A stretch of DNA of 64,000 bases from Nitrospirota bacterium (lineage in GTDB: Bacteria; Nitrospirota; Thermodesulfovibrionia; UBA6902; JAJYJJ01): contig JAJYJJ010000005.1 of assembly GCA_021789595.1 (NCBI GenBank), forward strand, positions 1 to 64,000. The letters run 5' to 3'. The position numbers and the translations under genes were made by a program. Shown piece after piece: positions 25,047-37,663 of this stretch. A model generated the notes under the pieces. It was given only the letters and a program-made list of their open reading frames with translations, had not been told where the DNA came from and searched no databases. The stretch's first letter is position 1. Every line of letters begins with the position of its first letter.

Positions 25047-26312
25047 TCAGGCCGTCCCTTTATATTTCAAGAAGCTTCTCTTATATTTGTAGTCCATTGA
25101 AGTATCAATATCCGCCAGCTTATGTTTAATCAGATGGGCGTTTACAAAGGTCTTATTCTTTAGATAAAGATAACACAGCAGATTTCCAGCCTTATCGTAC
25201 TTAATGCTGTCATATTTCATAAAGACTTTTTCGCCCTTAAGTTTATCCGACAAAAACCTAATAGCCTCTCCGTTGGCTTCTTTTTTTTCTTTCACTCCAA
25301 TAAGTCTAACTTTAAGGCCGTTGTCGAGAATAAGAACTTCAGGACTTAAAATTTCCTTCACAGTGTGATAGGTCTCTCGTGAATGGTCTGAATGGTCGAT
25401 TCGTGACCCGAACCTAAGTTTTCTGGGATCGATTTTCTTATCAAATTTTACCGGATCTCTGAAGATGTAAGGCAATTTCTTAATCTCATCAGCGAAGTTT
25501 AACTTCAGTGTTTCTTGCTGAACAACCGTGATTTCAGCGCCTTTCAATTTTGACTTTATTACTGGCAGAAATTCTTTGTTTATCTCATAGCCTACTGAGT
25601 TTCTCTCAAGGTTTCTTGCGGCAAGGCAGGTTGTGCCGCTGCCGAGGAACGGGTCAAGGACTGTATCGCCAACAAAGCTGAACATCTTTATCAATCTCCT
25701 CGGCAACTCCTCGGGAAACATGGCAAGATGCTTGTCTTGTTTTTCACCCGGAAAATTCCAGTGGCCATAAAAATACTCATTCCACTCATCTACCGTGAGC
25801 TTTGATTTTTCTTTTATCTCCCTGCTTACCTTTGGAGGGTCGCCCAGTTTCTTAAAAATCAGTATGAACTCGTAGTCAAGCTTAATTATTCCATTTCGAG
25901 GGTAAGGGAATGACCCCATAATTGTCGCCCCACCTGTTGTATTGCATGTCGTAACCTTCTGCCAGATAATAGCACCCATGTAATCAAAGCCAATAGTTTC
26001 GCAGAATTTGATTATCTCCTCCCTTATTGGAATAACCTTATACCTGCCATAATACACTGACCTTGCAAACTGGTCGCCGATATTCACGCACAAACGGCAA
26101 CCTTTGTGTAAGACTCTATAACACTCTTTCCAGACAAGGTTTAAATTGTTGATATAATCCTCATAACTATCATTAAACCCTATCTGACTTCCATTGCCGT
26201 AGTCCTTTAATTGCCAATAAGGAGGAGATGTAACGACAAGATGAACGCTCTCATCCTTAAGCTCGCTCATGTTCCGGCTGTCGCCGATGATTATGGTGGG
26301 GTTAGGGAGCAT
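25047..26312 (-). CDS. DNA methyltransferase (beta-type) fused to an SNase-like domain
   Basis: 421 aa. Residues 1-260 are an amino-methyltransferase in beta order: catalytic motif TSPPYWQL (28-35) first, SAM motif DPFLGSGTT (220-228) later. A TSPPY motif favours N4-cytosine methylation, although adenine cannot be excluded. Residues about 318-404 resemble a staphylococcal-nuclease (TNase) fold: LKVRLIGVKEKKEANGEAI, LKGEKVFMKYD, YDKAGNLLCYLYL, FVNAHLIKHKLADID. The Arg aligned with nuclease R87 is Asn (AGN), so the tail may bind rather than cut. Last gene of the island operon. Its first 51 bp are repeated at 29060-29110. Confidence 0.85.
   Translation of the reverse strand: MLPNPTIIIGDSRNMSELKDESVHLVVTSPPYWQLKDYGNGSQIGFNDSYEDYINNLNLVWKECYRVLHKGCRLCVNIGDQFARSVYYGRYKVIPIREEIIKFCETIGFDYMGAIIWQKVTTCNTTGGATIMGSFPYPRNGIIKLDYEFILIFKKLGDPPKVSREIKEKSKLTVDEWNEYFYGHWNFPGEKQDKHLAMFPEELPRRLIKMFSFVGDTVLDPFLGSGTTCLAARNLERNSVGYEINKEFLPVIKSKLKGAEITVVQQETLKLNFADEIKKLPYIFRDPVKFDKKIDPRKLRFGSRIDHSDHSRETYHTVKEILSPEVLILDNGLKVRLIGVKEKKEANGEAIRFLSDKLKGEKVFMKYDSIKYDKAGNLLCYLYLKNKTFVNAHLIKHKLADIDTSMDYKYKRSFLKYKGTA
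26262..26312. repeat. 51-bp direct repeat, left copy
   Basis: 45 of 51 bases match 29060-29110 in the same orientation. This copy is the 5' end of the methyltransferase-SNase gene; the other is a stranded remnant. The pair brackets the EcoRV-type module (D12 methylase, endonuclease, beta methylase). Confidence 0.85.
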
Positions 26313-26315
26313 CTT

Positions 26316-27383
26316 CTATTCCCCTATCAAAATCACTTCCTCTAATTCATTTGTGCTCAAGGCATATTTATAGTCTTTTCGTTTTATCTCATGGATAGTT
26401 CGTTTATATTTTTCGAGCATATTTGAAAGTGTGTCTATAGATGGAATTCCATCAGAGCGATACGAAATAACAAGAATACCATCTTGAAATCTCTCAAATA
26501 GCTTATCAAAAGCAGAATGTATTTTATTTCTGTCAATCCAGACAGATGGTTTAGACTTCAACTTTCTGTGTTTTGTTTTATAATCAATCATGTTGGGCCA
26601 GTTTTCATAATTAACAAGTCCCTCAAGAAAATGATAAAACCCAAAATAGTCAACTCCAACACCTTTCTTGGAAATATAAGGGGTATCTATATATATAAGA
26701 TCAAAATCCCCTTCTATATTAAAAACATCAAGGTTTAACGCCTTATTCCTTTGACCATTGGAAAAGACTGCATTATTAGCCTCTTCAACAAATTTTCTAA
26801 AATGAATCTCAAATGGAGTGTCCCATGTTGCCTTATTACCAAAATCCCTTTTAACTTCAGCAAATCTTAAATAAAGATTTTTTCTGTGAAATAGATTAAA
26901 TGGTCTTTTAATAATACATGACTGAAATAATGCAAAATATGCCAAAGCTTGCTTGTATTTATCATCTATCAGTCTGATATTCGTCACAACCATATCAATC
27001 CAGCTATTTTCTTTATCTGTAAAATAAATATTTTTGAAAGTGTCAGCTATAAAAGTGGGGTAGGTTATTCCTTTATGCTTTGTAAGAAGAAAATTAACAT
27101 CATCGTTTGAGAGGGTAACTTCATCGTTTTCTATTAATGCAAGACCTATATAATAGTTGAATTTTAAAATGTCATTATATGTAACTTTTTTACCCTGCTC
27201 TTTAAGCATATAAGCAACGCTTCCAGTTCCACCAAAAGCATCAAGGGCTGTATGGAATTTCAGGTCTTTTACCCCTTCCCATATCCAGTCAACTATCTTG
27301 AGCTTACTTCCCTGAAAACGGGTTGAGGGGAACACTGGATCTTCCTCAAGTAAAACCATTTGCTTTTTTAGATATCTCGTCAT
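26316..27383 (-). CDS. D12-class adenine-specific DNA methyltransferase
   Basis: 355 aa, Dam/DpnM/M.EcoRV-type (alpha order). The N-terminal TRFQGSKLKIVDWIW and SAM motif DAFGGTGSVAYML (48-60) come first; the catalytic motif is IDTPYIS (232-238), DTPY instead of DPPY. Methylates adenine N6. It follows the EcoRV-like endonuclease gene by 2 bp, and M.EcoRV is itself a D12-class enzyme, so this is the best candidate for the protecting methylase at the same site. Confidence 0.9.
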   Translation of the reverse strand: MTRYLKKQMVLLEEDPVFPSTRFQGSKLKIVDWIWEGVKDLKFHTALDAFGGTGSVAYMLKEQGKKVTYNDILKFNYYIGLALIENDEVTLSNDDVNFLLTKHKGITYPTFIADTFKNIYFTDKENSWIDMVVTNIRLIDDKYKQALAYFALFQSCIIKRPFNLFHRKNLYLRFAEVKRDFGNKATWDTPFEIHFRKFVEEANNAVFSNGQRNKALNLDVFNIEGDFDLIYIDTPYISKKGVGVDYFGFYHFLEGLVNYENWPNMIDYKTKHRKLKSKPSVWIDRNKIHSAFDKLFERFQDGILVISYRSDGIPSIDTLSNMLEKYKRTIHEIKRKDYKYALSTNELEEVILIGE

Positions 27384-27385
27384 CT

Positions 27386-28198
27386 CTATTCCTTCTTTCT
27401 GAGCTTTTTATATTGCATGTATGCCCTAAGGTTTTTATAGGGTGCTTCTTTAAGCTCTACCGCTTTTGCCATATCCTTAGTAAGATAGAACATCCAGTAA
27501 TCGTCAAAGACCTCTTCTCCAAGTTTTGCAAATGGCCCCTTGCCATTTATAAGTTCATCTATCTTGATAACAGAACCAATGTTTTTTGTATTTCCGCTGC
27601 CTGGTCTGTCTGTAGCAATTTTGTATTTTTCCTGAACAAAGAAAACGAAATCTTTTACCACTGATGTTATGTTCTGAAGGTCGTCAAGGTGATAAATCTT
27701 TTTTTCATCAAGATGCCTATCAGTTCTTGAATAAATAACACCTAAAACAAAATGTCCCATATATTCATCGTAAGGGAAAGTTATATTTTTCTTGCTTTTT
27801 CTATCTCTGAAATAGCCAGTGAACGCTCCCAAGGTCATTCCGTTTACATCTTTTCCATTCTTTCTATAAGTGCTTTTCACATCCACAACAAACTTATTGT
27901 CATTGTTGTCAACGAATGTAATATCAGGATAAAAATTTTGCTCTTCGCATAAGACCATCTTATATTTATTCTCCTCTGCAAATTGACATATTTTAGGAAA
28001 TAGCAGAAGCTCCATGATCTTTGAAACCACCTTTGTATCAACAGAGATCGTATAGATATTCTTTGCAATGTCTATAAATCCTTTTACAACCCAATCTCCA
28101 TCTTCTGTAGAAACAGCAGCATTAAACTGATTAACATGCTTTAGAAGCTGACCTCTGAATTTCTCCTTAAGCCTTTGTCTTTCTTCTGAATTCCCCAT
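27386..28198 (-). CDS. Type II restriction endonuclease, EcoRV homologue
   Basis: 270 aa from the ATG at 28198 (GAGGGG box 4 nt upstream). Match to EcoRV runs along the chain, from memory of that protein. Residue numbers here count from the alternative TTG at 28210, four codons upstream. QNFYPDITF holds D96 and VVDVKSTY holds D110/K112, aligning with catalytic D74, D90 and K92. TLGAFTGYFRD and FPYDEYMGHFVLGVIYSR follow. PGSGNTKNIGS aligns with the recognition loop GSGNTTNIGS that reads GATATC. Overlaps the upstream methylase by 32 bp. Very likely cuts GATATC or a close variant. Confidence 0.9.
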   Translation of the reverse strand: MGNSEERQRLKEKFRGQLLKHVNQFNAAVSTEDGDWVVKGFIDIAKNIYTISVDTKVVSKIMELLLFPKICQFAEENKYKMVLCEEQNFYPDITFVDNNDNKFVVDVKSTYRKNGKDVNGMTLGAFTGYFRDRKSKKNITFPYDEYMGHFVLGVIYSRTDRHLDEKKIYHLDDLQNITSVVKDFVFFVQEKYKIATDRPGSGNTKNIGSVIKIDELINGKGPFAKLGEEVFDDYWMFYLTKDMAKAVELKEAPYKNLRAYMQYKKLRKKE

Positions 28199-29042
28199 AT
28201 TTCCCCTCAATTCTATCTTTTATAAGCTGGCAATAATTTGAGTCTATCTCTATCATAATACATTTTCTGCCGAGTCCCTGTGCAACATACCCTGTTGTTC
28301 CTGAACCGGCAAAGGGGTCAAGCACCAGATCACCTTCATTGCTTCCGGCAAGAAGCACATATTCCAAAATTATCGGCTGTTTTGTGGCAGGATGTCTGAA
28401 AGGATTTTTTTCAGCCCAATATTCCCATAAATTTTTCATCTGTATATTACCATTTAGTTTTTTCATCTGCCAATAGTTAAATTTAGTTTTCCCTTTATTA
28501 TTCTTTTTTGCCCATAACATTGTTTCTGTAACTGCCCTAAAACAAGAACCCTTGAAGTTGGGCGGGGCATTTCTTTTATGTAGAATTATATCGTTAAGTA
28601 TCTTAAAACCTAAGTCTTGAAGCACAACATTGATAACTCCAATACTATGATACGTTCCAGTAACCCAGATAGTCGAGCCGTCTTTCAAAATTCTTTGAGC
28701 CTCTTTAAGCCAAGCATAATGAAATTCAAACTGATAAGATAGTGACTTTGAATATGCCCATTTTGCCTTTTGTGTATCAAAAGTTTCAGCATGACCATCT
28801 GTCCGTTTCATTATCAAACCTGATTGATTTCCAAAATAAGGCGGGTCTGCAAATATAAGGTCTATACACTTGTTGGGTATTCTTTTAAGCAATGCAAGTG
28901 CATCACCATTGTATAGCTTTATTTTCTTTTGAGGGTCATAAAAAAATGGAACAGTCTTCCGGTTTTCGCCGTAAGGAACAGTTTCCTCAGCACAGATTAA
29001 AGCTTCAAAGTTTTCAAATATGTCTTTTACAGATGTTGCCAT
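28167..29042 (-). CDS. Beta-class adenine DNA methyltransferase (DpnA-like)
   Basis: 291 aa. Catalytic motif FADPPYFG (65-71) precedes the SAM motif DPFAGSGTTG (242-251), the beta order, and DPPY indicates N6-adenine. A target-recognition stretch with NPPFRHPATKQP-like residues (KNPFRHPATKQPIIL) is typical of HinfI/DpnA-type enzymes. It heads the EcoRV-type module and overlaps the endonuclease gene. Having both a D12 and a beta adenine methylase beside one endonuclease recalls the DpnII system, where the second enzyme protects incoming single-stranded or unmodified DNA. Confidence 0.9.
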   Translation of the reverse strand: MATSVKDIFENFEALICAEETVPYGENRKTVPFFYDPQKKIKLYNGDALALLKRIPNKCIDLIFADPPYFGNQSGLIMKRTDGHAETFDTQKAKWAYSKSLSYQFEFHYAWLKEAQRILKDGSTIWVTGTYHSIGVINVVLQDLGFKILNDIILHKRNAPPNFKGSCFRAVTETMLWAKKNNKGKTKFNYWQMKKLNGNIQMKNLWEYWAEKNPFRHPATKQPIILEYVLLAGSNEGDLVLDPFAGSGTTGYVAQGLGRKCIMIEIDSNYCQLIKDRIEGKYGEFRRKTKA

Positions 29043-29110
29043 AGTTTTAAAGACCTTATCTCGCTCATATTCCGGCTATCGCCGATGATTATGGTGAGGT
29101 TAATGGGCAT
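29027..29110 (-). pseudogene. Remnant 5' end of a methyltransferase gene
   Basis: An ATG at 29110 opens a 27-codon frame, MPINLTIIIGDSRNMSEI, that copies the start of the methyltransferase-SNase gene (MLPNPTIIIGDSRNMSEL). It then runs into the next gene out of frame and stops at 29029-29027. It begins 9 bp after the PIN-like gene's stop. Only the first 18 or so codons are homologous, so this is a stranded fragment, not a functional enzyme. Confidence 0.8.
29060..29110. repeat. 51-bp direct repeat, right copy
   Basis: Partner of 26262-26312 (six mismatches in 51). Consistent with duplication of a gene start when the EcoRV-type module was inserted or recombined in. Confidence 0.85.
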
Positions 29111-29119
29111 AAGCTTCAG

Positions 29120-31087
29120 TTAAACGGTTTCCTTTTGCTTTTTTTCGTTATCCGTATTTTCTCCAATTAACCAGCTAATGATTTTATTTTTGATAATTAT
29201 TTTGATTTTGTCTCTAAATCCCTTAACGTTAAAACCAGTGGCAACACTTAATAGACCAAGTAGAAATGTAATTAATATTAGGATTATTCTCAATAAACGA
29301 TGATTGTTTAGAAAATCAGGAAAAAATTGCGCAGCAGTTCCCAAAATAAATAAGATTACAAGTATTATGAATAATATTTTTCCTAATGTATTAGAAATTT
29401 TTTCTGCTTTCACTTCTACTTTTCTTTCTATGTCTTCTTTTTCTTGTGTGGCAGTATCCAATTTAGATAAAGTTTCAGCATGCTGCTCTTTCTCTTTAAG
29501 GTATTTCTCATCCCCTTCTCTTCTGATCCCTTCTCTAATTTCTTCAAGAATTTCTTCGGATGTCTTATCGGTAAAGTTATTTGGATCACCCATCGTTTTT
29601 TCTTCTAACAACTCCATTGCAACTCTGTGAGTCCTAAGTAAATAATATTCATCACTGCTTATTTTCTTCTCATGCCTTAATTTTTCCACCTCACTTAAAA
29701 ATTTTTTTATCAACGTATCATTTGGTTGCAACGCAGCATAACAATCAGCAATTATTTTTTTCTCATTTAAAGATAAAACTTTCGCAGGTGACTGTAGCCA
29801 TACTAAAGTCCCTATAAAAATATCTGTTAAGCAAGCTGGAATATTATGGTCTTCACCTATTTCGGACGATTCGAACCGTCTATTCGCATAAGATAAGCCC
29901 GAATTCGTTGTCACAAAAATGCTATCTGCCTCCTTAATGGTTTTTGGTTTTCTTCCCTTTCTTAACCTATAAATACTTGCGATAGATTTAACATCTTTTT
30001 GTATCGCTGAGCGTTTTTCTAATTCTTCAAAGCTTGGATTCTGTTCTTTATAAGCCTCAACAATTGCAGCATGCAATTTATCTTCGTCTATTTGATAATA
30101 TTTATACTTATTAGGGTCAGGTGCATCTACCTTGATTATTTTATTTTCTTCTAAAACTCTATCTACATTAATAATAAATCTTTCTACATCACTTGACTTA
30201 TAATTATTTTCAACAAAATATCTTAATACTGGGCTTGCTAAGGATGAATCATATCGAGGATTTTCGACCCATCTAAGTGCATCTTCTAAAATGCCCATCA
30301 TTTCTTCATATGTATGCTGGAATAAAAATAAATTCCCTTTCTCTTCCGAAAGTGTTTTAAAAAATTCAATATAGGCCTCTTTTTTTTCTTTCCCTTCTGC
30401 ACCTATTAATCGGAGAATACATCTTGTATCAAAATAAAAATTTATTTTCTTTAATTTTCCCACAAATTTATCAAATTTGTTATAAAGTACTGCGCTCGCT
30501 AAAATATAACCTACTGCTATATCAACAATAAATCTGAAAATTTCAGGCTCTGATTCATGCGCATTTTTTATAAACTTATAAATGAGGAATTTCTTTTCAT
30601 TTGAAGACTTGATTGGGGGCAAAACTGTTGGATCTTGAGCAGCAAATAAAATGTCTAAATCATGGTCTTTTAGAAATGAAGTAAAGGCAGCCTCAGCCTC
30701 TTCCCTTGTTAACTCAACAGAATAATTTTGCTTTACAAAGCTAATAAATTCTTTTGTAATCTTTTCCTGCTTCCTAAGCTGCTCCTCGGTAATTCCAGTA
30801 AACTCAAACTTAGCTACTTTCTCTTTATTGGGTTTAAATTTACCATAGTCTCTTTCAATTAGCCCTCTTTTTTGAGTACGGGTGAGTACTGTAAGCATTG
30901 GATGATAAGGTATTATGAGTCCAAATTCTTTTGTAAAATCACTACAAGCTGTGTTTATATCGATTACATCATAGTTGTTTTTCTTAATCAAAGTAGCAAT
31001 AAAGGGGATAAAATTTTCGATATAATCTTTTTTAAGGTGATCCCAATTAACTTTCAGAACTGCAAGACTTGCAATAATGTTATCCAT
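29120..31087 (-). CDS. Membrane-anchored PIN-like nuclease candidate, unknown family
   Basis: 655 aa, not recognised as a named system. Residues 1-95 look like a winged-helix region (IIPYHPMLTVLTRTQKRGLIERD). Residues about 214-400 have the PIN-domain pattern of four acidic positions: FYFDTR (D220), HTYEEM (E261/E262), KDVKSIASIYRLR (D365) and ADSIFVTTNSGLSYA (D388). A coiled coil at about 508-565 leads to two hydrophobic helices (about 568-589 and 598-617) and a short basic tail. This suggests a cytoplasmic nuclease head tethered to the inner membrane. It lies between two restriction systems on the same strand. RNase or DNase activity is inference. Confidence 0.75.
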   Translation of the reverse strand: MDNIIASLAVLKVNWDHLKKDYIENFIPFIATLIKKNNYDVIDINTACSDFTKEFGLIIPYHPMLTVLTRTQKRGLIERDYGKFKPNKEKVAKFEFTGITEEQLRKQEKITKEFISFVKQNYSVELTREEAEAAFTSFLKDHDLDILFAAQDPTVLPPIKSSNEKKFLIYKFIKNAHESEPEIFRFIVDIAVGYILASAVLYNKFDKFVGKLKKINFYFDTRCILRLIGAEGKEKKEAYIEFFKTLSEEKGNLFLFQHTYEEMMGILEDALRWVENPRYDSSLASPVLRYFVENNYKSSDVERFIINVDRVLEENKIIKVDAPDPNKYKYYQIDEDKLHAAIVEAYKEQNPSFEELEKRSAIQKDVKSIASIYRLRKGRKPKTIKEADSIFVTTNSGLSYANRRFESSEIGEDHNIPACLTDIFIGTLVWLQSPAKVLSLNEKKIIADCYAALQPNDTLIKKFLSEVEKLRHEKKISSDEYYLLRTHRVAMELLEEKTMGDPNNFTDKTSEEILEEIREGIRREGDEKYLKEKEQHAETLSKLDTATQEKEDIERKVEVKAEKISNTLGKILFIILVILFILGTAAQFFPDFLNNHRLLRIILILITFLLGLLSVATGFNVKGFRDKIKIIIKNKIISWLIGENTDNEKKQKETV

Positions 31088-31137
31088 TCCTTCTATCTCC
31101 TTTTAATCAAAAACATTTTTCTCACTTCCCCTTCCTC

Positions 31138-31162
31138 CCCCTTTAAACGGCTCCTTATCCGC
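31138..31162. repeat. 25-bp direct repeat, left copy
   Basis: CCCCTTTAAACGGCTC, one variable base, TTATCCGC. Matches 34006-34030 with one mismatch. Lies in the 122-bp gap between the TdeIII-like endonuclease and the PIN-like gene. The pair brackets the second restriction module. Confidence 0.85.
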
Positions 31163-31209
31163 TTACCAAAAAACAACATCTATTATCGTCTCTAACTAAA
31201 ATCCAACAA

Positions 31210-32019
31210 TCAACTTTTTACTTGGCGTACTGTCTCTGCTATCACATCTAATATATCAGTCATGGTTCCTTGGTTGCCGCTAAGAAAGTCCCATAATTCG
31301 CCGGCGATAAGTACTTCTTCGTAAGCAAAAAACTTTTTAAATTCGATTAGGTAGTCAAAAAATCTTTCCTTGTCGTATCCCGTTACCTCTTCTGATGTTG
31401 GATCAAAAGGAAAACCAATAAAAAACTTAATGGCTTTGTTCGGATTCTGTAGTTTGAGCGCAGCTTTGCCATATAATATTTTTTGTTTTTCACCTCGCCC
31501 TTCCCCTGAATTTGGTCTCACAGATTTCAACTCAATGGCGATAATTTCATTTTCCCTCTCAATATAAGTATCAACAGTAAATTGCAGAGAATCAATCTCC
31601 TGATCCGTATCAGGATAATTAAAAATCAAACCATTTTCTCTATTTAAATCTGGCTGGTGCGCATCTGATTTTAAATCACGTATTATGTTTTCTATTTGAG
31701 AAGCTTGTGTCGTTTTTACCTTTAATTTGTATGCGCCAGTAAATCTACGTTTATAACCACCCGACAAAATGTGAGAAATATTTTCAAAGCCAGTCCCTAA
31801 AGAAGTATTTAGCCCATGCAACCAACTTGCAAGAGCTATTAGATAAGGCATTTCTATATTCAATGGTTCAAGCCGTTCTCTAAAATATTCTAAGAATGCG
31901 CTATGGAAAGGTGCATTACGAATTTCTGCCCCCAATTCCGGAAAATTTTCAATTCTTCTCAAAAGAATATCCTTTACGACCTCGCTAATTCTATTCTGTT
32001 GATCTTGTGTCAATGGCAT
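31210..32019 (-). CDS. Type II restriction endonuclease, TdeIII-like
   Basis: 269 aa. PD-(D/E)xK nuclease core with D150 (LQFTVDTY) and IELKS (E163, K165). The core is followed by the family-like VRPNSGEGRGEKQKIL segment and a strand IKFFIGFPFDP. An N-terminal helical part has FHSAFLEYF and LHGLNTSLGTGFENI. TdeIII-family enzymes recognise GGNCC; assignment here is by remembered motif pattern, so specificity is tentative. Four bp downstream of its methyltransferase. Confidence 0.75.
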   Translation of the reverse strand: MPLTQDQQNRISEVVKDILLRRIENFPELGAEIRNAPFHSAFLEYFRERLEPLNIEMPYLIALASWLHGLNTSLGTGFENISHILSGGYKRRFTGAYKLKVKTTQASQIENIIRDLKSDAHQPDLNRENGLIFNYPDTDQEIDSLQFTVDTYIERENEIIAIELKSVRPNSGEGRGEKQKILYGKAALKLQNPNKAIKFFIGFPFDPTSEEVTGYDKERFFDYLIEFKKFFAYEEVLIAGELWDFLSGNQGTMTDILDVIAETVRQVKS

Positions 32020-32022
32020 AGC

Positions 32023-33621
32023 TTATTTCCCCTTTAAATGAAAAATGATTTCCGAATATGCCCCTTTATCTTTTTCAGTACGGTTTAATACTGGGCGTTT
32101 ATATTGATTGACGATTTGCATGCCGGCATTTTCTGCAATTGTAGGGTATATTCTATATTTGTCATTGGCTACAAGGAAAATGTCATAGTCGTCAACTAAG
32201 AATTTTTTGCAGTTATTAAGAACATCTATTATTCCTTGAATGTAGTTCTGTTTTGCCTCTCTGCTTTGCCCCTTGTGAAGTGGGCCGATTTCTAAATTGT
32301 CTTGACGTTCGAAACCAAAGAGGTCATAAGCATAAGCGTGTTGTTCGTGATAATCAATTAATCCTACGTAAGGCGGGCTTGAAAATATTCCTTTAATTCT
32401 TTGTTTTCTTGCCAATTTTGCAAAGGCAGAATTTTTCTTTTCAAGCTCTTTGAAGAGGTCAATCGTTCGGCTGTCTCCAGCTAAACAAACTTGGAAAGTA
32501 TTTGTTCTCAATCTATCGAATTGCGATAGCCGGTTTACTGTGTCTTTTGTGTAAGTTTCCCACCACTTGAGAATGGAAAAAAGCGGTTTACAAATTTTGC
32601 CATGTTTCGCACAGTAATAAGTTGCTGTGATCGGTTCAACAAGTGTCGCGAGGTCTGCATGTGTTGTGGCCCGGCAGGAACGAATAGTTCTGCTTAAAAT
32701 AACACTTATGATTCTTTTAGTGTCAGCGTCTTTTATCTTTTTGATTTCATCAAACACAAAGTGAATTTCGTCTCTGATATGTTGAGAATACCATTTGTCG
32801 AGAAAAGAGTCGGCTTTATCCTGCCTTAATTTGATATTGTATCGTTTAACGAATTTGTTGAAAATGGGTAAAAACTCTTTTTCTTTTTCTGCGCCATATC
32901 TGTCCTCATCAATTTGATTACGCTTGACTTTGTATTTATATTCAGGAACGGGGAAATATTTATTGTTGAATTCATAGAGTGCTTGTAAAAGTTTTTCTTC
33001 AAATTCAAGTGTGTGAGAATTTTGTAAAAATTCCTTGAGCGCTTTCGTTATCTGTACGATTTCTTTTTGAACATCAGCCAAGTTATATTTGGCAACCTTG
33101 CAATTCCCTATGAGTGCATTGAATTCAGAAACATCGATTCCAATGGTGTGCATTCCAAGCTCGCAGGCTTGCACCATAGTAGTTCCACTGCCGGCAAACG
33201 GATCAAGAACAATGTCGCCTTTTCTGAAACATACCCCCTTCTTAAAATTGTCAGTATGGTCGTCAAGAAAATATTCAACAAGTTGAGGAATAAATTTACC
33301 TTTATATGGATGTAGCCGATGAACGTGTTTGGTTGTCTCGGCTTCTTTGTATTGGTCAAACGAAAGTGCCCAGTTTAAATCTTCGCCAAGTCGGTCTTTC
33401 CATGAAATTTCTCGCTTCCCATTATAAGATTTATAATAGTTGAATAACTCTTGCTGTGAAACTTGCGTCATGCCATTATCGCCAATTTTTCTGATTCGGC
33501 CATATTGAATAAGATACGAGATATTAGAAGTTGTAACATTTTTGTGTAAATATCTTGTTGCCCACGTACTAGCTTCCTTTATAGTCAATAGTGTTTCTCT
33601 TTCTATTTTCGTAGTATCCAT
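32023..33621 (-). CDS. Site-specific DNA methyltransferase with N-terminal HTH
   Basis: 532 aa. Residues 10-65 form an excisionase/MerR-like helix-turn-helix (TIKEASTWATRYLHKNVTTS, then YLIQYGRIRKIG). The SAM motif DPFAGSGTT (140-148) precedes the catalytic SSPPYVGLID (414-423), with a 260-residue insert carrying the target-recognition part. SSPPY favours N4-cytosine. It is the modification partner of the TdeIII-like endonuclease. The HTH may let it repress its own operon, as some methylases do; that is inference. Confidence 0.88.
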   Translation of the reverse strand: MDTTKIERETLLTIKEASTWATRYLHKNVTTSNISYLIQYGRIRKIGDNGMTQVSQQELFNYYKSYNGKREISWKDRLGEDLNWALSFDQYKEAETTKHVHRLHPYKGKFIPQLVEYFLDDHTDNFKKGVCFRKGDIVLDPFAGSGTTMVQACELGMHTIGIDVSEFNALIGNCKVAKYNLADVQKEIVQITKALKEFLQNSHTLEFEEKLLQALYEFNNKYFPVPEYKYKVKRNQIDEDRYGAEKEKEFLPIFNKFVKRYNIKLRQDKADSFLDKWYSQHIRDEIHFVFDEIKKIKDADTKRIISVILSRTIRSCRATTHADLATLVEPITATYYCAKHGKICKPLFSILKWWETYTKDTVNRLSQFDRLRTNTFQVCLAGDSRTIDLFKELEKKNSAFAKLARKQRIKGIFSSPPYVGLIDYHEQHAYAYDLFGFERQDNLEIGPLHKGQSREAKQNYIQGIIDVLNNCKKFLVDDYDIFLVANDKYRIYPTIAENAGMQIVNQYKRPVLNRTEKDKGAYSEIIFHLKGK

Positions 33622-33622
33622 C

Positions 33623-33832
33623 TTACTCCTCTACCCACGGATAAAAACTCTGCTCATCCGTAATCTTCAATCTCTCAACTATCCAATCTTCAATGACATC
33701 TCTGACTTCGCCAATCATCTCAATATCCCATCTGATTTCATCTGCAGTTGGATTGAGTTCCCGAATGAGCTGATAGATGGCGTTGTCAACGCTGTCCTGT
33801 CTTTCAATCTGTTCTTCTGTTAATTCTTCCAT
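33623..33832 (-). CDS. Small acidic protein of the restriction operon
   Basis: 69 aa from the ATG at 33832, with an AAAGGA box about 9 bp upstream; the frame is open 18 codons further but with an unlike, Arg-rich sequence. Very acidic and helical (MEELTEEQIERQDSVDNAIY, then EIRWDIEMIGEVRDVIEDW), ending FYPWVEE. Stops 1 bp before the methyltransferase start. No helix-turn-helix, so not an ordinary C protein. It could be a chaperone-like or DNA-mimic accessory; function unknown. Confidence 0.7.
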   Translation of the reverse strand: MEELTEEQIERQDSVDNAIYQLIRELNPTADEIRWDIEMIGEVRDVIEDWIVERLKITDEQSFYPWVEE

Positions 33833-33882
33833 ACGATTAATCCTTTGTCTTTTTAAATTCCTTACATTATTACACCTAAAAT

Positions 33883-33990
33883 TCAAACCCCAATAGTCTC
33901 ACGACAGATACTCAAAAAATCCTCTGAAATTTTTTTATCTTCCTCAGCAATTTCCTTGTAGATATTTTTAATTTCTTCAAAAGTTTTCAT
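33883..33990 (-). CDS. Tiny 35-aa protein at the head of the restriction operon
   Basis: ATG at 33990 behind a strong AAGGAAGG box; the stop is at 33885-33883. The sequence starts MKTFEEIKNIYKEIAEEDKK and ends ICRETIGV, amphipathic helical and charged, with no membrane segment. Upstream of the 69-aa gene by 50 bp. The strong ribosome site is the main evidence that it is translated. Confidence 0.5.
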   Translation of the reverse strand: MKTFEEIKNIYKEIAEEDKKISEDFLSICRETIGV

Positions 33991-34005
33991 AGTAACCCTT
34001 CCTTA

Positions 34006-34030
34006 CCCCTTTAAACGGCTCATTATCCGC
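34006..34030. repeat. 25-bp direct repeat, right copy
   Basis: Partner of 31138-31162, one mismatch in 25. Lies between vapC and the 35-aa gene, directly upstream of that gene's ribosome site. Confidence 0.85.
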
Positions 34031-34037
34031 GGTCAGA

Positions 34038-34448
34038 TTAAAAAACATTTGAAACACCTTCTATGTTTTTAAAATGCTTAACATCAAACGTGGCCACTTT
34101 TTTGAAATCTTTTGATTTCATATACGCGATATTATAGGCATCAATAAAGTCCATTTTCCCTGTAGAATAAAGAACAACTGCTTCTTTGACTCTTGCATGG
34201 TTAGCTATTTTGAGGTTTTTTGTTTCGAGGATTGTTTCAACTACTTCTTTTATCTCTAATCTTGAAAAATCATAATATGATTCAAGAACCCAGACTATCT
34301 CAGCTATAACAATGTCGGTTGTTTCGAGCTTTAGCTCCCCCTTTTCTGTTTTTTCAAAAAGCTCCTTGGCTTTTACGTAAAGAGATTCAACATCTCTGAC
34401 GAAAAATCTTAAAAATACATTGGTGTCAACAAAAATAGGGTCATCCAC
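34038..34448 (-). CDS. vapC: VapC-type PIN toxin
   Basis: 136 aa single PIN domain with the four acidic residues: IFVDTNVFLRFF, IVIAEIVWVLES, MDFIDAYNIAYM and VATFDVKHF. VapC toxins are RNases that cut tRNA or rRNA. Its start overlaps the antitoxin stop by 8 bp, giving the usual antitoxin-first order. Confidence 0.93.
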   Translation of the reverse strand: MDDPIFVDTNVFLRFFVRDVESLYVKAKELFEKTEKGELKLETTDIVIAEIVWVLESYYDFSRLEIKEVVETILETKNLKIANHARVKEAVVLYSTGKMDFIDAYNIAYMKSKDFKKVATFDVKHFKNIEGVSNVF

Positions 34449-34695
34449 TCTTTAATCCCTCTTTTGCAATTCTCTTTGCAACAACTTTCTTGGTAAACTC
34501 CCTCTCGTCTCCAAATCCAACCTTCCTGCCCTTAGCAATTCCACCGAGGCTTAGTATTGATTTCCTTTCTTTTTTCTTTAAAATCAGCGCATCACCTTTT
34601 ACCTCGAATATAAGGCTGTCGCCTTCCTTGATGTGAAGCTTTTCCCTGAATGCCTTTGGTATTGTTACCTGCCCCTTTTTTGTTATTGTTGACAT
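34441..34695 (-). CDS. vapB: AbrB/MazE-fold antitoxin of VapC
   Basis: 84 aa. An N-terminal SpoVT-AbrB DNA-binding swapped hairpin (ITKKGQVTIPKAFREKLHI, then GDSLIFEVKGDALILKKKE) is followed by a basic C-terminal tail that would bind the toxin. GGAGGT box before the ATG. Expected to repress its own promoter with VapC at the palindrome just upstream. Confidence 0.92.
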   Translation of the reverse strand: MSTITKKGQVTIPKAFREKLHIKEGDSLIFEVKGDALILKKKERKSILSLGGIAKGRKVGFGDEREFTKKVVAKRIAKEGLKSG

Positions 34696-34710
34696 TTCCT
34701 TACCTCCAAA

Positions 34711-34752
34711 ATAGTCTTACCTTATTTTAGGTATTACTATTTAGAAAGTCAA
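34711..34752 (-). promoter_or_regulatory. vapBC promoter with palindromic operator
   Basis: Minus strand TTGACT (34752-34747), 17 bp, TAAAAT (34729-34724). A 30-bp imperfect palindrome (34711-34740; arms ATAGTAATACCT and AGGTAAGACTAT, 10 of 12 paired, 6-bp centre) covers the -10, as expected for autorepression by the antitoxin complex. The -35 overlaps the end of the dCMP deaminase gene. Confidence 0.75.
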
Positions 34753-35237
34753 ACCTTAATCCCCTCCAACTCCCTCACATCCTCCACTCTCACGATGCTC
34801 CCGTCTTTACTGAGATAGATGACCTCTTTTATCATTGCATTCCTTATCATCCTTCTGCACAGAAGGCAGGACTTTCCTTCTGCAGGGGAATTGTCTTCTT
34901 CAAAACCTGCAATGTAGATAGCTGCATCCTTCATCCTCTCTGGTGAGCCGTTGATAATGGCATTCTGCTCTGCATGGACTGCCTCGCAGAGCTCATATCT
35001 TTCACCTGAAGGTATATTGAGTTCCTTCCTCTTGCAATTGCCTCTATCCACACAGTTTGTTGAGCCCCGCGGTGCGCCGTTGTACCCTGTGCTCACAATG
35101 ACATTGTCCTTCACGATTACCGCTCCATATCGCCTCCGCAAACAGGTGGAACGGGAGGATACCACCTTTGCTATCTCTATAAAGTATTCATCCCATGAAG
35201 GCCTGTTAAATGGCTTATTACCGTTATCTCCATTCAT
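34749..35237 (-). CDS. dCMP/cytidylate deaminase (ComEB-like)
   Basis: 162 aa from the ATG at 35237 with an AGGAGG box. Zinc-dependent deaminase: HAEQNAI (zinc His and catalytic Glu) and CLLCRRMI (two zinc Cys); CNGAPRG-like substrate loop (TGYNGAPRGSTNC). Converts dCMP to dUMP for dTTP synthesis. Overlaps no other gene and follows the class II RNR by 8 bp, so both belong to one dNTP-supply operon. Confidence 0.92.
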   Translation of the reverse strand: MNGDNGNKPFNRPSWDEYFIEIAKVVSSRSTCLRRRYGAVIVKDNVIVSTGYNGAPRGSTNCVDRGNCKRKELNIPSGERYELCEAVHAEQNAIINGSPERMKDAAIYIAGFEEDNSPAEGKSCLLCRRMIRNAMIKEVIYLSKDGSIVRVEDVRELEGIKV

Positions 35238-35245
35238 AAAGCCTC

Positions 35246-37543
35246 CTAACTGCACTTTGTAAATCCGCAGTTATGGCATACTGCACAGCCGCCCTCATGT
35301 TCAACAGCGCCGCCGCACTCAGGGCATGCGCCGATGAGCATTATCTCATGCAGGCCATCCTTATGCCCGTTGCCGTTTCCTTTGTCGGCCTTCAAGTTGT
35401 ATTTTTCTATAGCCTTTGCAATGGCATCAGAACATGACAATATCTTCCCGCCATTACACCATGTGGGCTGGTGGCAGGAGATGCCCTTTAACTGTTTTAC
35501 AACCTCATCAGGTTCGATATTGGACCTGAATGCTAAGGATACAAGCCTTCCTATGGCCTCTGCCTGGCTTGAAGCACATCCTCCAGCCTTGCCCATGGAT
35601 GTGAACAGCTCAAAGAGATGGCCGTTTTCATCCTCGTTTATTGTGACATAGAGGTTTCCGCATCCGGTCTTCATAAACCTCGTTGAGCCCCTTATCACCT
35701 CGGGCCTTTTCTTTGGGACTATCTTGACTGTCTGGGCGTTGACCTGTTGAGTGCTGTCTTTTGTCTTCCCTGTTGAGAGAACCTGCTCTTCCCTTGAGCC
35801 GTCCCTGTAAACAGTAACACCCTTACAGTTAAGCTTGTAGGCAAGGAGATAGACATCCTCCACATCCTTAGGCGTTGCGTGGTGAGGGAAGTTAACGGTT
35901 TTTGATACTGCATTATCCACATGCCTCTGGAAGGCTGCCTGCATCTTTATATGTTCTACAGGTGTTATATCATGGGCAGTCACAAATATAGACCTTATGT
36001 CTGATGGGATCTCATTGAAGCCCTGTATGCTCCCCTTTTCTGCGATCCTCTCCATGAGGTCCCTGCTCCAGAAGCCGTTTTCCTTTGCGACCTTTTCAAA
36101 GTATGGATTAACCTCGATGAGCCTTGTCCCTTCCATGACGGTTCTTACAAAGGAGATCGCAAAAAGCGGCTCTATTCCTGACGAACAACCTGCAATTATG
36201 GAAAGGGTTCCTGTTGGAGCAATGGTTGTTATGGTTGCATTTCTTAGCGGCATTTTTCCGTCATATATGCTGCCTTTATAATTAGGGAATACCCCCCGAC
36301 CTTCTGCCAATGCCATTGATGCATTCCTTCCTTCTGTCTGTATGAAACCCATCACATTCTCAGCCAGCCCTACTGCATCTACGGAATTGTAAGGGATGTC
36401 CAGACGAATGAGCATATCTGCCCATCCCATGACGCCAAGGCCTATCTTCCTGTTTGCCTTTGTCATCTCCTCTATCTTGGGTAGAGGATACCTGTTTACA
36501 TCTATGACATTATCGAGGAAATGGACCGCCTTCCATGTCGTGTCTCTGAGTTTATCCCAGTCCACCTCATATTGAACTGACGAGGGGTTAATCCCCCCCG
36601 CCCCCCCCTTAGTAAAGGGGGGTGAGGGGGGATTTGCTGGCTTTACCATCTTTGCAAGGTTTATTGAGCCCAGGTTGCAGGACTCATAGGGGAGAAGCGG
36701 CTGCTCCCCGCAGGGGTTTGTGGATTCTATCTCTCCTGTATGCGGAGTCGGATTAGATGCATTCAGCCTGTCGAGGAATACAATGCCAGGCTCGCCGTTT
36801 TTCCATGCGTGGTTCACGATTAAATTAAAGACATCCCTCGCTCTTAGCCTCTTTGTGAGCTGTTTCGTCCTTGGGTTTATAAGTTCGTATTCCCTGTCCT
36901 CGCACAGGGCATTCATAAACTCCTCGGTAAGGCCGACAGATATATTGAAATTGTTGAGCCTTGTATCCTCATTTTTACATGTGATAAAACTCAGGATGTC
37001 GGGATGGTCTACACGTAAAAGGCCCATGTTTGCACCTCGCCTTGTCCCCCCCTGCTTTACAGCCTCTGTTGCTGAATCAAACACGGTCATAAAGGATACA
37101 GGGCCTGATGAGATGCCTTTTGTTGAGCCAACAACATCTCCGCTCGGTCTTAGCCGTGAAAAACTGAATCCTGTGCCTCCCCCTGATTTGTGTATTATGG
37201 CGGCATTTTTTACTGCATCGAAGATGGACTCCATCGAGTCTTCTACAGGAAGGACAAAACATGCAGAGAGCTGCCCAAGCCTCCTCCCTGCATTCATGAG
37301 GGTGGGGCTGTTTGGAAGGAACTCAAAAGATGTCATCATCCCGTAGAATTCATCCTCTGTTTCAGATGCATTCTGCGGAGTTTTGCCGTAATTCATATCG
37401 GCTGATGCTATTGCCTTTGAAATCCTCCTGAACATCACCTCAGGGGTTTCAACAACCTTCCCTTCCTCATCCTTCTTAAGATACCGTTTCTCAAGGACCT
37501 TTAATGCATTTGTCGTAAGATTAAGACCGTCCAATGCCTTCAT
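35246..37543 (-). CDS. nrdJ: Adenosylcobalamin-dependent (class II) ribonucleotide reductase
   Basis: 765 aa from the ATG at 37543 behind GGGAGGGG. Active-site elements: [16 protein letters not shown] (first redox Cys), [17 protein letters not shown] (radical Cys loop), and [17 protein letters not shown]. The C-terminus has a zinc-ribbon-like GACPECGG and CAVCHNCG tail carrying the reducing cysteines. Reduces ribonucleotides using B12 instead of oxygen or a glycyl radical. An in-frame palindromic repeat (36588-36634) adds [14 protein letters not shown]. An NrdR-like operator lies in its promoter. Confidence 0.95.
36588..36634. repeat. In-frame palindromic C/G-rich repeat, copy 5
   Basis: TTAATCCCCCC outer arm, an inner CCCCCCTTAGTAAAGGGGGG hairpin, and GGGGGGATT. 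Lies in nrdJ and encodes [15 protein letters not shown]. Confidence 0.9.
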
Positions 37544-37663
37544 AAACCCCTCCCTTTTCAAATTTTAAAAAGTTTATTTATTAATCAGATGCCTGCCTGA
37601 AAATACCCTTTCAAATCCCCCCTCCCTATCCAATAAATTGTATTATTAATCCACTTTTTACTA

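Follow-up and report, generated by a model that had tools for sequence, protein, structure and literature searches.

Which role is played by a 655-residue protein whose gene lies between two type II restriction-modification (RM) modules, and is that protein itself a means of defence? The question is raised by a locus of a Nitrospirota bacterium, analysed here within a window of 64,000 nucleotides (the whole stretch of contig JAJYJJ010000005.1 that was studied). A preliminary description of this DNA had proposed a membrane-tethered, PIN-like nuclease inside a restriction island and a candidate defence protein. Very probably this is an uncharacterised protein of anti-virus defence and not a housekeeping one, because the PIN family to which it belongs recurs in and beside DNA-restriction operons, in prophages and on plasmids. 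The features of the locus and of the protein are listed in the table.

Features of the restriction island and of the 655-aa protein (positions in the window; all on the minus strand)
Feature	Position	Strand	Evidence
wHTH-PIN-coiled coil-2TM protein, 655 aa	29120..31087	minus	ORF, ATG start
Winged-helix-like N-terminal segment, residues ~24-86	30830..31018	minus	AF2 model secondary structure; weak Foldseek matches
Predicted PIN core, residues ~214-432, helical insertion between E262 and D365	29792..30448	minus	model, Foldseek, profile match
D220, PIN motif 1 (FYFDT)	30428..30430	minus	31/31 full-length clade A members
E262, PIN motif 2	30302..30304	minus	30/31 E, 1 Q (clade A)
D365, PIN motif 3 (DVKSI)	29993..29995	minus	31/31 clade A
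N395 of VTTN, PIN motif 4	29903..29905	minus	clade A 29/31 N, 1 D, 1 T; clade C D in 6/6
Coiled coil, residues ~509-568	29384..29563	minus	one long helix 509-588 in AF2 model
C-terminal 2-TM hairpin, TM1 ~571-589, TM2 ~598-616	29240..29377	minus	hydropathy and charge, 22 members
TdeIII-type REase, upstream neighbour	31210..32019	minus	Pfam RE_TdeIII 4.5e-53; same order in L024
N6/N4 DNA methyltransferase of TdeIII-type module	32023..33621	minus	PADLOC MTase_II 9.7e-256
CcrM-like DNA methyltransferase, downstream neighbour	28167..29042	minus	Pfam N6_N4_Mtase 6.6e-48
EcoRV-family REase	27386..28210	minus	Pfam Endonuc-EcoRV 3.5e-110
D12-class adenine methyltransferase	26316..27383	minus	Pfam MethyltransfD12 8.2e-15
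N6/N4 methyltransferase with C-terminal SNase-like domain	25047..26312	minus	Pfam N6_N4_Mtase 2.2e-44, SNase 1.7e-5
VapC-type PIN toxin (context)	34038..34448	minus	Pfam PIN 6.8e-13
AbrB/MazE-type antitoxin (context)	34441..34695	minus	Pfam MazE_antitoxin 8.5e-16

The plus strand across 29120-31087 is full of stops, and the gene is present as a single copy in its 2.23 Mb genome. As the preliminary description had it, the gene stands between two type II modules on the same strand, one TdeIII-type and one EcoRV-type (27386-29042), in one minus-strand run with short gaps, and the island holds a VapBC system (the VapC/AbrB pair at 34038-34695). The GC content of the island (25047-34695) is 35.6%, and that of the PIN gene itself 31.5%, against about 45.6% in both flanks, which supports horizontal acquisition. 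The methyltransferase-SNase fusion at 25047-26312 is spanned over its full length by the PADLOC model PDLC03259 and has close relatives in L024 and L117. In several Nitrospirota, the DNA that immediately follows the B12-dependent ribonucleotide reductase gene, which a dCMP deaminase gene may accompany, carries variable toxin-antitoxin (TA) and RM cargo (window 34695-37561; L117, L046/L017 and L054). This cargo consists of a TA-like pair followed by a homologue of the methyltransferase at window 25047-26312 in G014, of a nucleotidyltransferase/HEPN-like pair, a type II RM system and the PIN gene in G274, and of a fragment of the PIN family in G234; ordinary genes were found there in most of 16 other genomes examined. 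The region is a possible integration hotspot.

The N-terminal winged-helix-like segment, the coiled coil and the two C-terminal membrane helices described earlier were all seen again in the AF2 model or by hydropathy. In the model the winged-helix-like segment is made of helices at residues 24-37, 44-55 and 61-73 and strands at 77-80 and 83-86, and a Foldseek search of the whole chain against the PDB gave weak winged-helix matches (2co5, prob 0.69, and PadR 5x12). Nearly all of the 22 members analysed by hydropathy and charge carry a 2-TM hairpin with basic cytoplasmic ends; its loop is short and nearly uncharged, and on account of this loop and the basic C-terminus an N-in/C-in topology with a cytoplasmic core is predicted. 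The claimed membrane tether is supported as a feature of the family, in which a helical N-terminus containing a winged-helix-like element, the core, the coiled coil and the hairpin are common to the members. They are multi-domain proteins of 622-697 aa, unlike the toxins of VapBC systems, which consist of a PIN domain alone and measure about 130-140 aa. A DUF2207_C match (4e-4, below cut-off) covered the coiled coil/TM part alone and was set aside.

A full-length fold search against the PDB was uninformative because of the coiled coil and the TM helices, and the core was therefore folded alone (pLDDT 89, pTM 0.88). Structure prediction and fold search then returned a PIN-like core: the best Foldseek match in the PDB was HARP 7og5, a PIN RNase P (prob 1.00, E 0.026), and further matches included other HARPs, the VapC-like PINs 2fe1 and 1v8o (prob 0.94-0.95) and 8ssf, while a PIN-like domain was the top match in a structure search of a viral library (prob 0.90). 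Since the E-values of the core to PDB PIN structures were weak, 0.026 at best, sequence evidence for a PIN domain was sought. The family profile matched VapC-type PIN proteins of 136-140 aa over motifs 1-2 (E 8e-7 to 5e-6), and hhalign of the family against the VapC set gave 4.9e-6 (prob 86%). Pfam PIN_3 matched 3 of the 22 members (best 3.4e-4) and Pfam PIN matched one clade C relative directly (8.7e-4); the search of PDB sequences gave no PIN match. The modelled alpha/beta fold, the D-E-D-(D/N) order and the sequence homology support assignment of the core to the PIN domain-like superfamily. With a PIN-like model, sequence links to VapC and a conserved quartet, the claim of a PIN-like nuclease core is upheld, the activity itself being predicted.

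The four acidic positions named in the preliminary description fared unequally. Conservation supports D220, E262, D365 and N395 as the putative catalytic positions; D220, D365 and the E262 of the E261/E262 alternative were thus retained, whereas E261 was not, and D388 was rejected as the fourth residue, being K, R, G or F in most relatives. As for the motifs, only the 'DT' of DTR is kept, and VTTN stands as VT(T/S)N, which holds N395. Alignment A3 was used for pattern scans because A1 was too diverse for them. The distant clade C (L059 9104-11167, L065 8469-10730, L061, L062, L063 and L064) has a complete D-E-D-D quartet, with the canonical PIN residue D at 395, and keeps the winged-helix/PIN/coiled-coil/TM architecture; L062 and L063 lie beside methyltransferase-like genes. 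Another distant group, clade B (L055, L056, L066, L067 and L068), keeps the coiled coil and TMs and has lost the third catalytic Asp, so that catalysis need not extend to the whole superfamily; the members of this clade are possibly inactive or use another chemistry. The dN/dS ratio was 0.17 for the window protein and its L024 relative and 0.06 and 0.08 for others, which indicates strong purifying selection and a function that has been kept. Because homologues from about 11 phyla have this architecture in full, at dN/dS 0.06-0.17, the ORF and its architecture are more than chance.

Across these phyla the distribution is sparse and patchy, with about 1-4% of genomes matched per phylum in six phylum surveys, weak and partial matches counted. 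Genome scans identified relatives in Nitrospirota, Nitrospinota, Thermodesulfobacteriota, Myxococcota, Planctomycetota, Bacillota, Chloroflexota, Bacteroidota and Spirochaetota, and tblastn identified them in 12 plasmid records, with Enterococcus faecium, Sporosarcina, Arthrobacter, Hymenobacter, Pantoea, Klebsiella and Listeria as hosts. In E. faecium AKSZ-47 (L010 8001-9815) the gene ends early and adjoins an IS16 copy; the L016 copy is full-length. Close relatives of the Klebsiella copy were present in 2 of 5,426 E. coli genomes, each time within a P2-like prophage. In one prophage the gene lies between ogr and gene D; in the other it separates the tail sheath gene from the tail fibre assembly gene, which is the fun(Z) position. 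The E. coli prophage homologues have the accessions WP_204691543.1 and WP_096936374.1. P2-like phages have two variable loci with anti-phage genes (PMC9122126). A viral origin of the family was considered and rejected: though prophage copies occur in E. coli, the patterns used found no relatives among 50,697 phage records and IMG/VR.

For the window protein, nothing above cut-off was obtained in Pfam, NCBIfam, PADLOC or PHROGs, and nothing in PDB sequences. In PADLOC 2023 it had no match at E up to 1, and its relatives had only four single-member weak matches. The remark that the protein could not be matched to a named defence system stands, as none of these four curated libraries names the PIN family. 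A literature search for a membrane PIN defence protein or an RM-linked PIN returned related ideas only.

An RM gene was present within 5 kb at 16 of 37 family loci and at 1 of 40 loci that served as controls in the same genomes (Fisher p 1e-5). RM genes were counted by phmmer with own-locus seeds excluded. The controls were taken from long contigs of nine family-bearing genomes, so that loci on plasmids and in prophages stood without a matched control, and the family loci include fragments at contig ends, among them L048 and L049 of one and the same genome. Homologues thus recur beside RM and other defence genes and are not confined to housekeeping contexts. In an independent tally by Pfam, methyltransferases, HsdS, HsdM, HSDR_N, ResIII, TdeIII and resolvase/integrase dominate the family flanks, and transporters and metabolic genes the control flanks. 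Type II neighbours were found in the window, in L024 (a Nitrospinota copy of 83% identity with the same methyltransferase-TdeIII REase-gene order), in L017, where the gene follows the pair, and in L025, where it precedes the pair. Type I operons contain or adjoin the gene in L018, L020, L022, L041, L043, L047 and L048/L049, and it is embedded in them in L041, L043, L047, L048/L049, L059 and L065, whereas the window neighbours are type II. It directly follows hsdS in L043 (7-nt gap), L047 (4-nt overlap) and L048 (1-nt gap), and has hsdS on one side and hsdR on the other in L041 and L047, as also in L059 and L065 of clade C. In Hymenobacter (L012) it adjoins a methyltransferase/DEAD-helicase pair, probably type III, and in Sporosarcina (L009) it stands beside a CBASS locus; other copies occur alone in P2-like prophages and plasmids. 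The term restriction island accordingly holds for the window, but across the family the linkage concerns type I and type II systems alike, and many copies are alone. Nearby RM genes are absent at about half of the family loci, so that RM coupling is not obligatory. Mapped on the tree, the RM label changes about 9 times (at least 6 changes forced), which implies that linkage was gained or lost repeatedly; these changes and the several RM types rule out a single inherited linkage. No conserved small gene that could be an adjacent antitoxin was found beside the PIN family in the 37 loci. A Bacillota locus (L037 11297-13058, genome G423) has as neighbours a HEPN RiboL-PSP family protein (6.7e-38) and, by sequence reading, a DUF262-like protein, a candidate defence pair.

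The earlier claim of a defence role is thus carried by the RM linkage, by carriage in P2-like prophages and plasmids, and by the lack of a curated model. As for the mechanism, we lean, at slightly better than even confidence, towards an autoinhibited PIN nuclease, probably one that acts on RNA, which stands alone, is held at the membrane and often serves as a second line behind restriction. Such a protein would be a single-protein effector against phage (or plasmid). The winged-helix-like domain, together with the helical region that follows, would probably serve to sense or to hold a partner or a nucleic acid, the coiled coil and the 2-TM hairpin would keep the protein oligomerised and off at the inner membrane face, the anchor restraining or positioning it, and the PIN domain (D220/E262/D365/N395) would cut nucleic acid, by family precedent in a metal-dependent manner. 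RNA is the likelier substrate because the nearest PIN relatives cut RNA, and since no antitoxin gene is needed we infer that the protein is probably autoinhibited and that infection probably turns it on. In restriction operons it would probably stop the cell once restriction fails or is inhibited, a role equivalent to that of PrrC, with PIN instead of HEPN and a membrane anchor instead of the ABC ATPase. In PrrC, whose gene lies within the EcoprrI operon, such a second line has been proven, with anti-restriction as its trigger (PMC2610378, PMC3874165, PMC3710099, PMC12707154), and PIN RNases are among the backup effectors proposed for BREX loci (PMC12839542). Given this precedent and the frequent presence of the gene in restriction operons, copies that have RM beside them are likely to act as a backup. 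More tentatively, and as a possibility that we would not bet on, the family may guard restriction in general: winged-helix/PIN nucleases held at the membrane or by the RM complex would be freed by phage anti-restriction proteins, a PrrC-like strategy re-invented from unrelated parts for types I, II and probably III in about 11 phyla.

The main rival is cleavage of DNA at entry, as by SNIPE, which we consider unlikely: the membrane-held nuclease would cut entering phage or plasmid DNA under guidance of the winged helix, the anchor keeping the chromosome safe. PIN domains can cut DNA too (FEN/EXO1 type), but those near the family's, VapC and HARP, are RNases. A single protein with a membrane anchor and a predicted winged helix of DNA-binding type is what this rival calls for, and stand-alone copies in P2-like prophages and plasmids fit superinfection exclusion; it leaves the recurrent coupling to RM operons without explanation. 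The principle exists, SNIPE without its TM becoming toxic (PMC13190303), but Pfam gave no DUF4041 or GIY-YIG match in the PIN family, and the anchor is C-terminal, not N-terminal.

A weaker rival, which we hold to be improbable, makes the hairpin the effector, a SLATT-like or other permeabilising part that kills the cell, with the PIN-fold part as a sensor or ligand-binding module. Clade B, with its coiled coil and TMs but without the third Asp, would suit such a pore, and one member matches NCBIfam SLATT_4 over the hairpin (8.2e-5; 22.5 bits against a cut-off of 55); that is 1 of 22 members, none of which matches a SLATT profile above cut-off, and the quartet hardly varies in clade A and is complete in clade C (D at 395), under strong purifying selection. 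Equally improbable, finally, is an RM- or mobile-element-linked housekeeping or maintenance gene (RNA turnover, plasmid or island addiction) outside defence, to which plasmid and island carriage, the VapC relationship and the nearby VapBC pair might point, but against which stand the sparse, patchy distribution, prophage carriage, RM and CBASS neighbours and the absence of an adjacent conserved antitoxin gene.

The family has no name in any curated library, yet it reaches about 11 phyla, E. coli P2-like prophages and Enterococcus and Klebsiella plasmids, and these copies make it immediately testable in E. coli. Should the protein be the backup nuclease favoured here, restriction loci would hold a second, membrane-based defence layer beyond PrrC/RloC and PARIS, with phage anti-restriction proteins as likely triggers; if entering DNA is cut instead, it would be a second, unrelated instance of the SNIPE principle.

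Compared with known systems, the family is not PrrC/RloC (no ABC or HEPN), not SNIPE, not VapBC (by size and lack of an antitoxin), and not in PADLOC. VapC and HARP, the nearest solved structures, with direct profile matches, share the PIN fold and the D-E-D-(N/D) motif order, but they are small and soluble, VapC has a paired antitoxin, and the winged helix, the coiled coil and the TM anchor are absent from both. DS-3 of DefensePredictor is likewise a one-protein PIN anti-phage system, proposed to be autoinhibited and without antitoxin; its PIN domain is described as split between the N- and C-terminus, and the two are set apart as far as that description goes (PMC13092281). SNIPE is also a single membrane-anchored protein with a cytoplasmic nuclease, but it joins an N-terminal TM to DUF4041 and a GIY-YIG DNase (PMC13190303), whereas the PIN family has a C-terminal 2TM and PIN. 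PARIS, an RM guardian, resembles the guarding of restriction suggested above in being activated when phage inhibits restriction (PMC12707154, PMC9122126), but is a pair of an ABC ATPase and a TOPRIM protein with no PIN domain. Closest in strategy is PrrC, also a latent nuclease in or beside RM operons with no separate antitoxin, whose position is matched by the hsdS-hsdR location of several relatives (PMC2610378, PMC3874165, PMC3710099). PrrC joins an ABC ATPase to HEPN, neither of which is among the listed Pfam matches of any member, and is soluble and always type IC-linked; the PIN family, in contrast, combines PIN, a winged helix and a membrane hairpin, accompanies types I, II and probably III, and is often unlinked.
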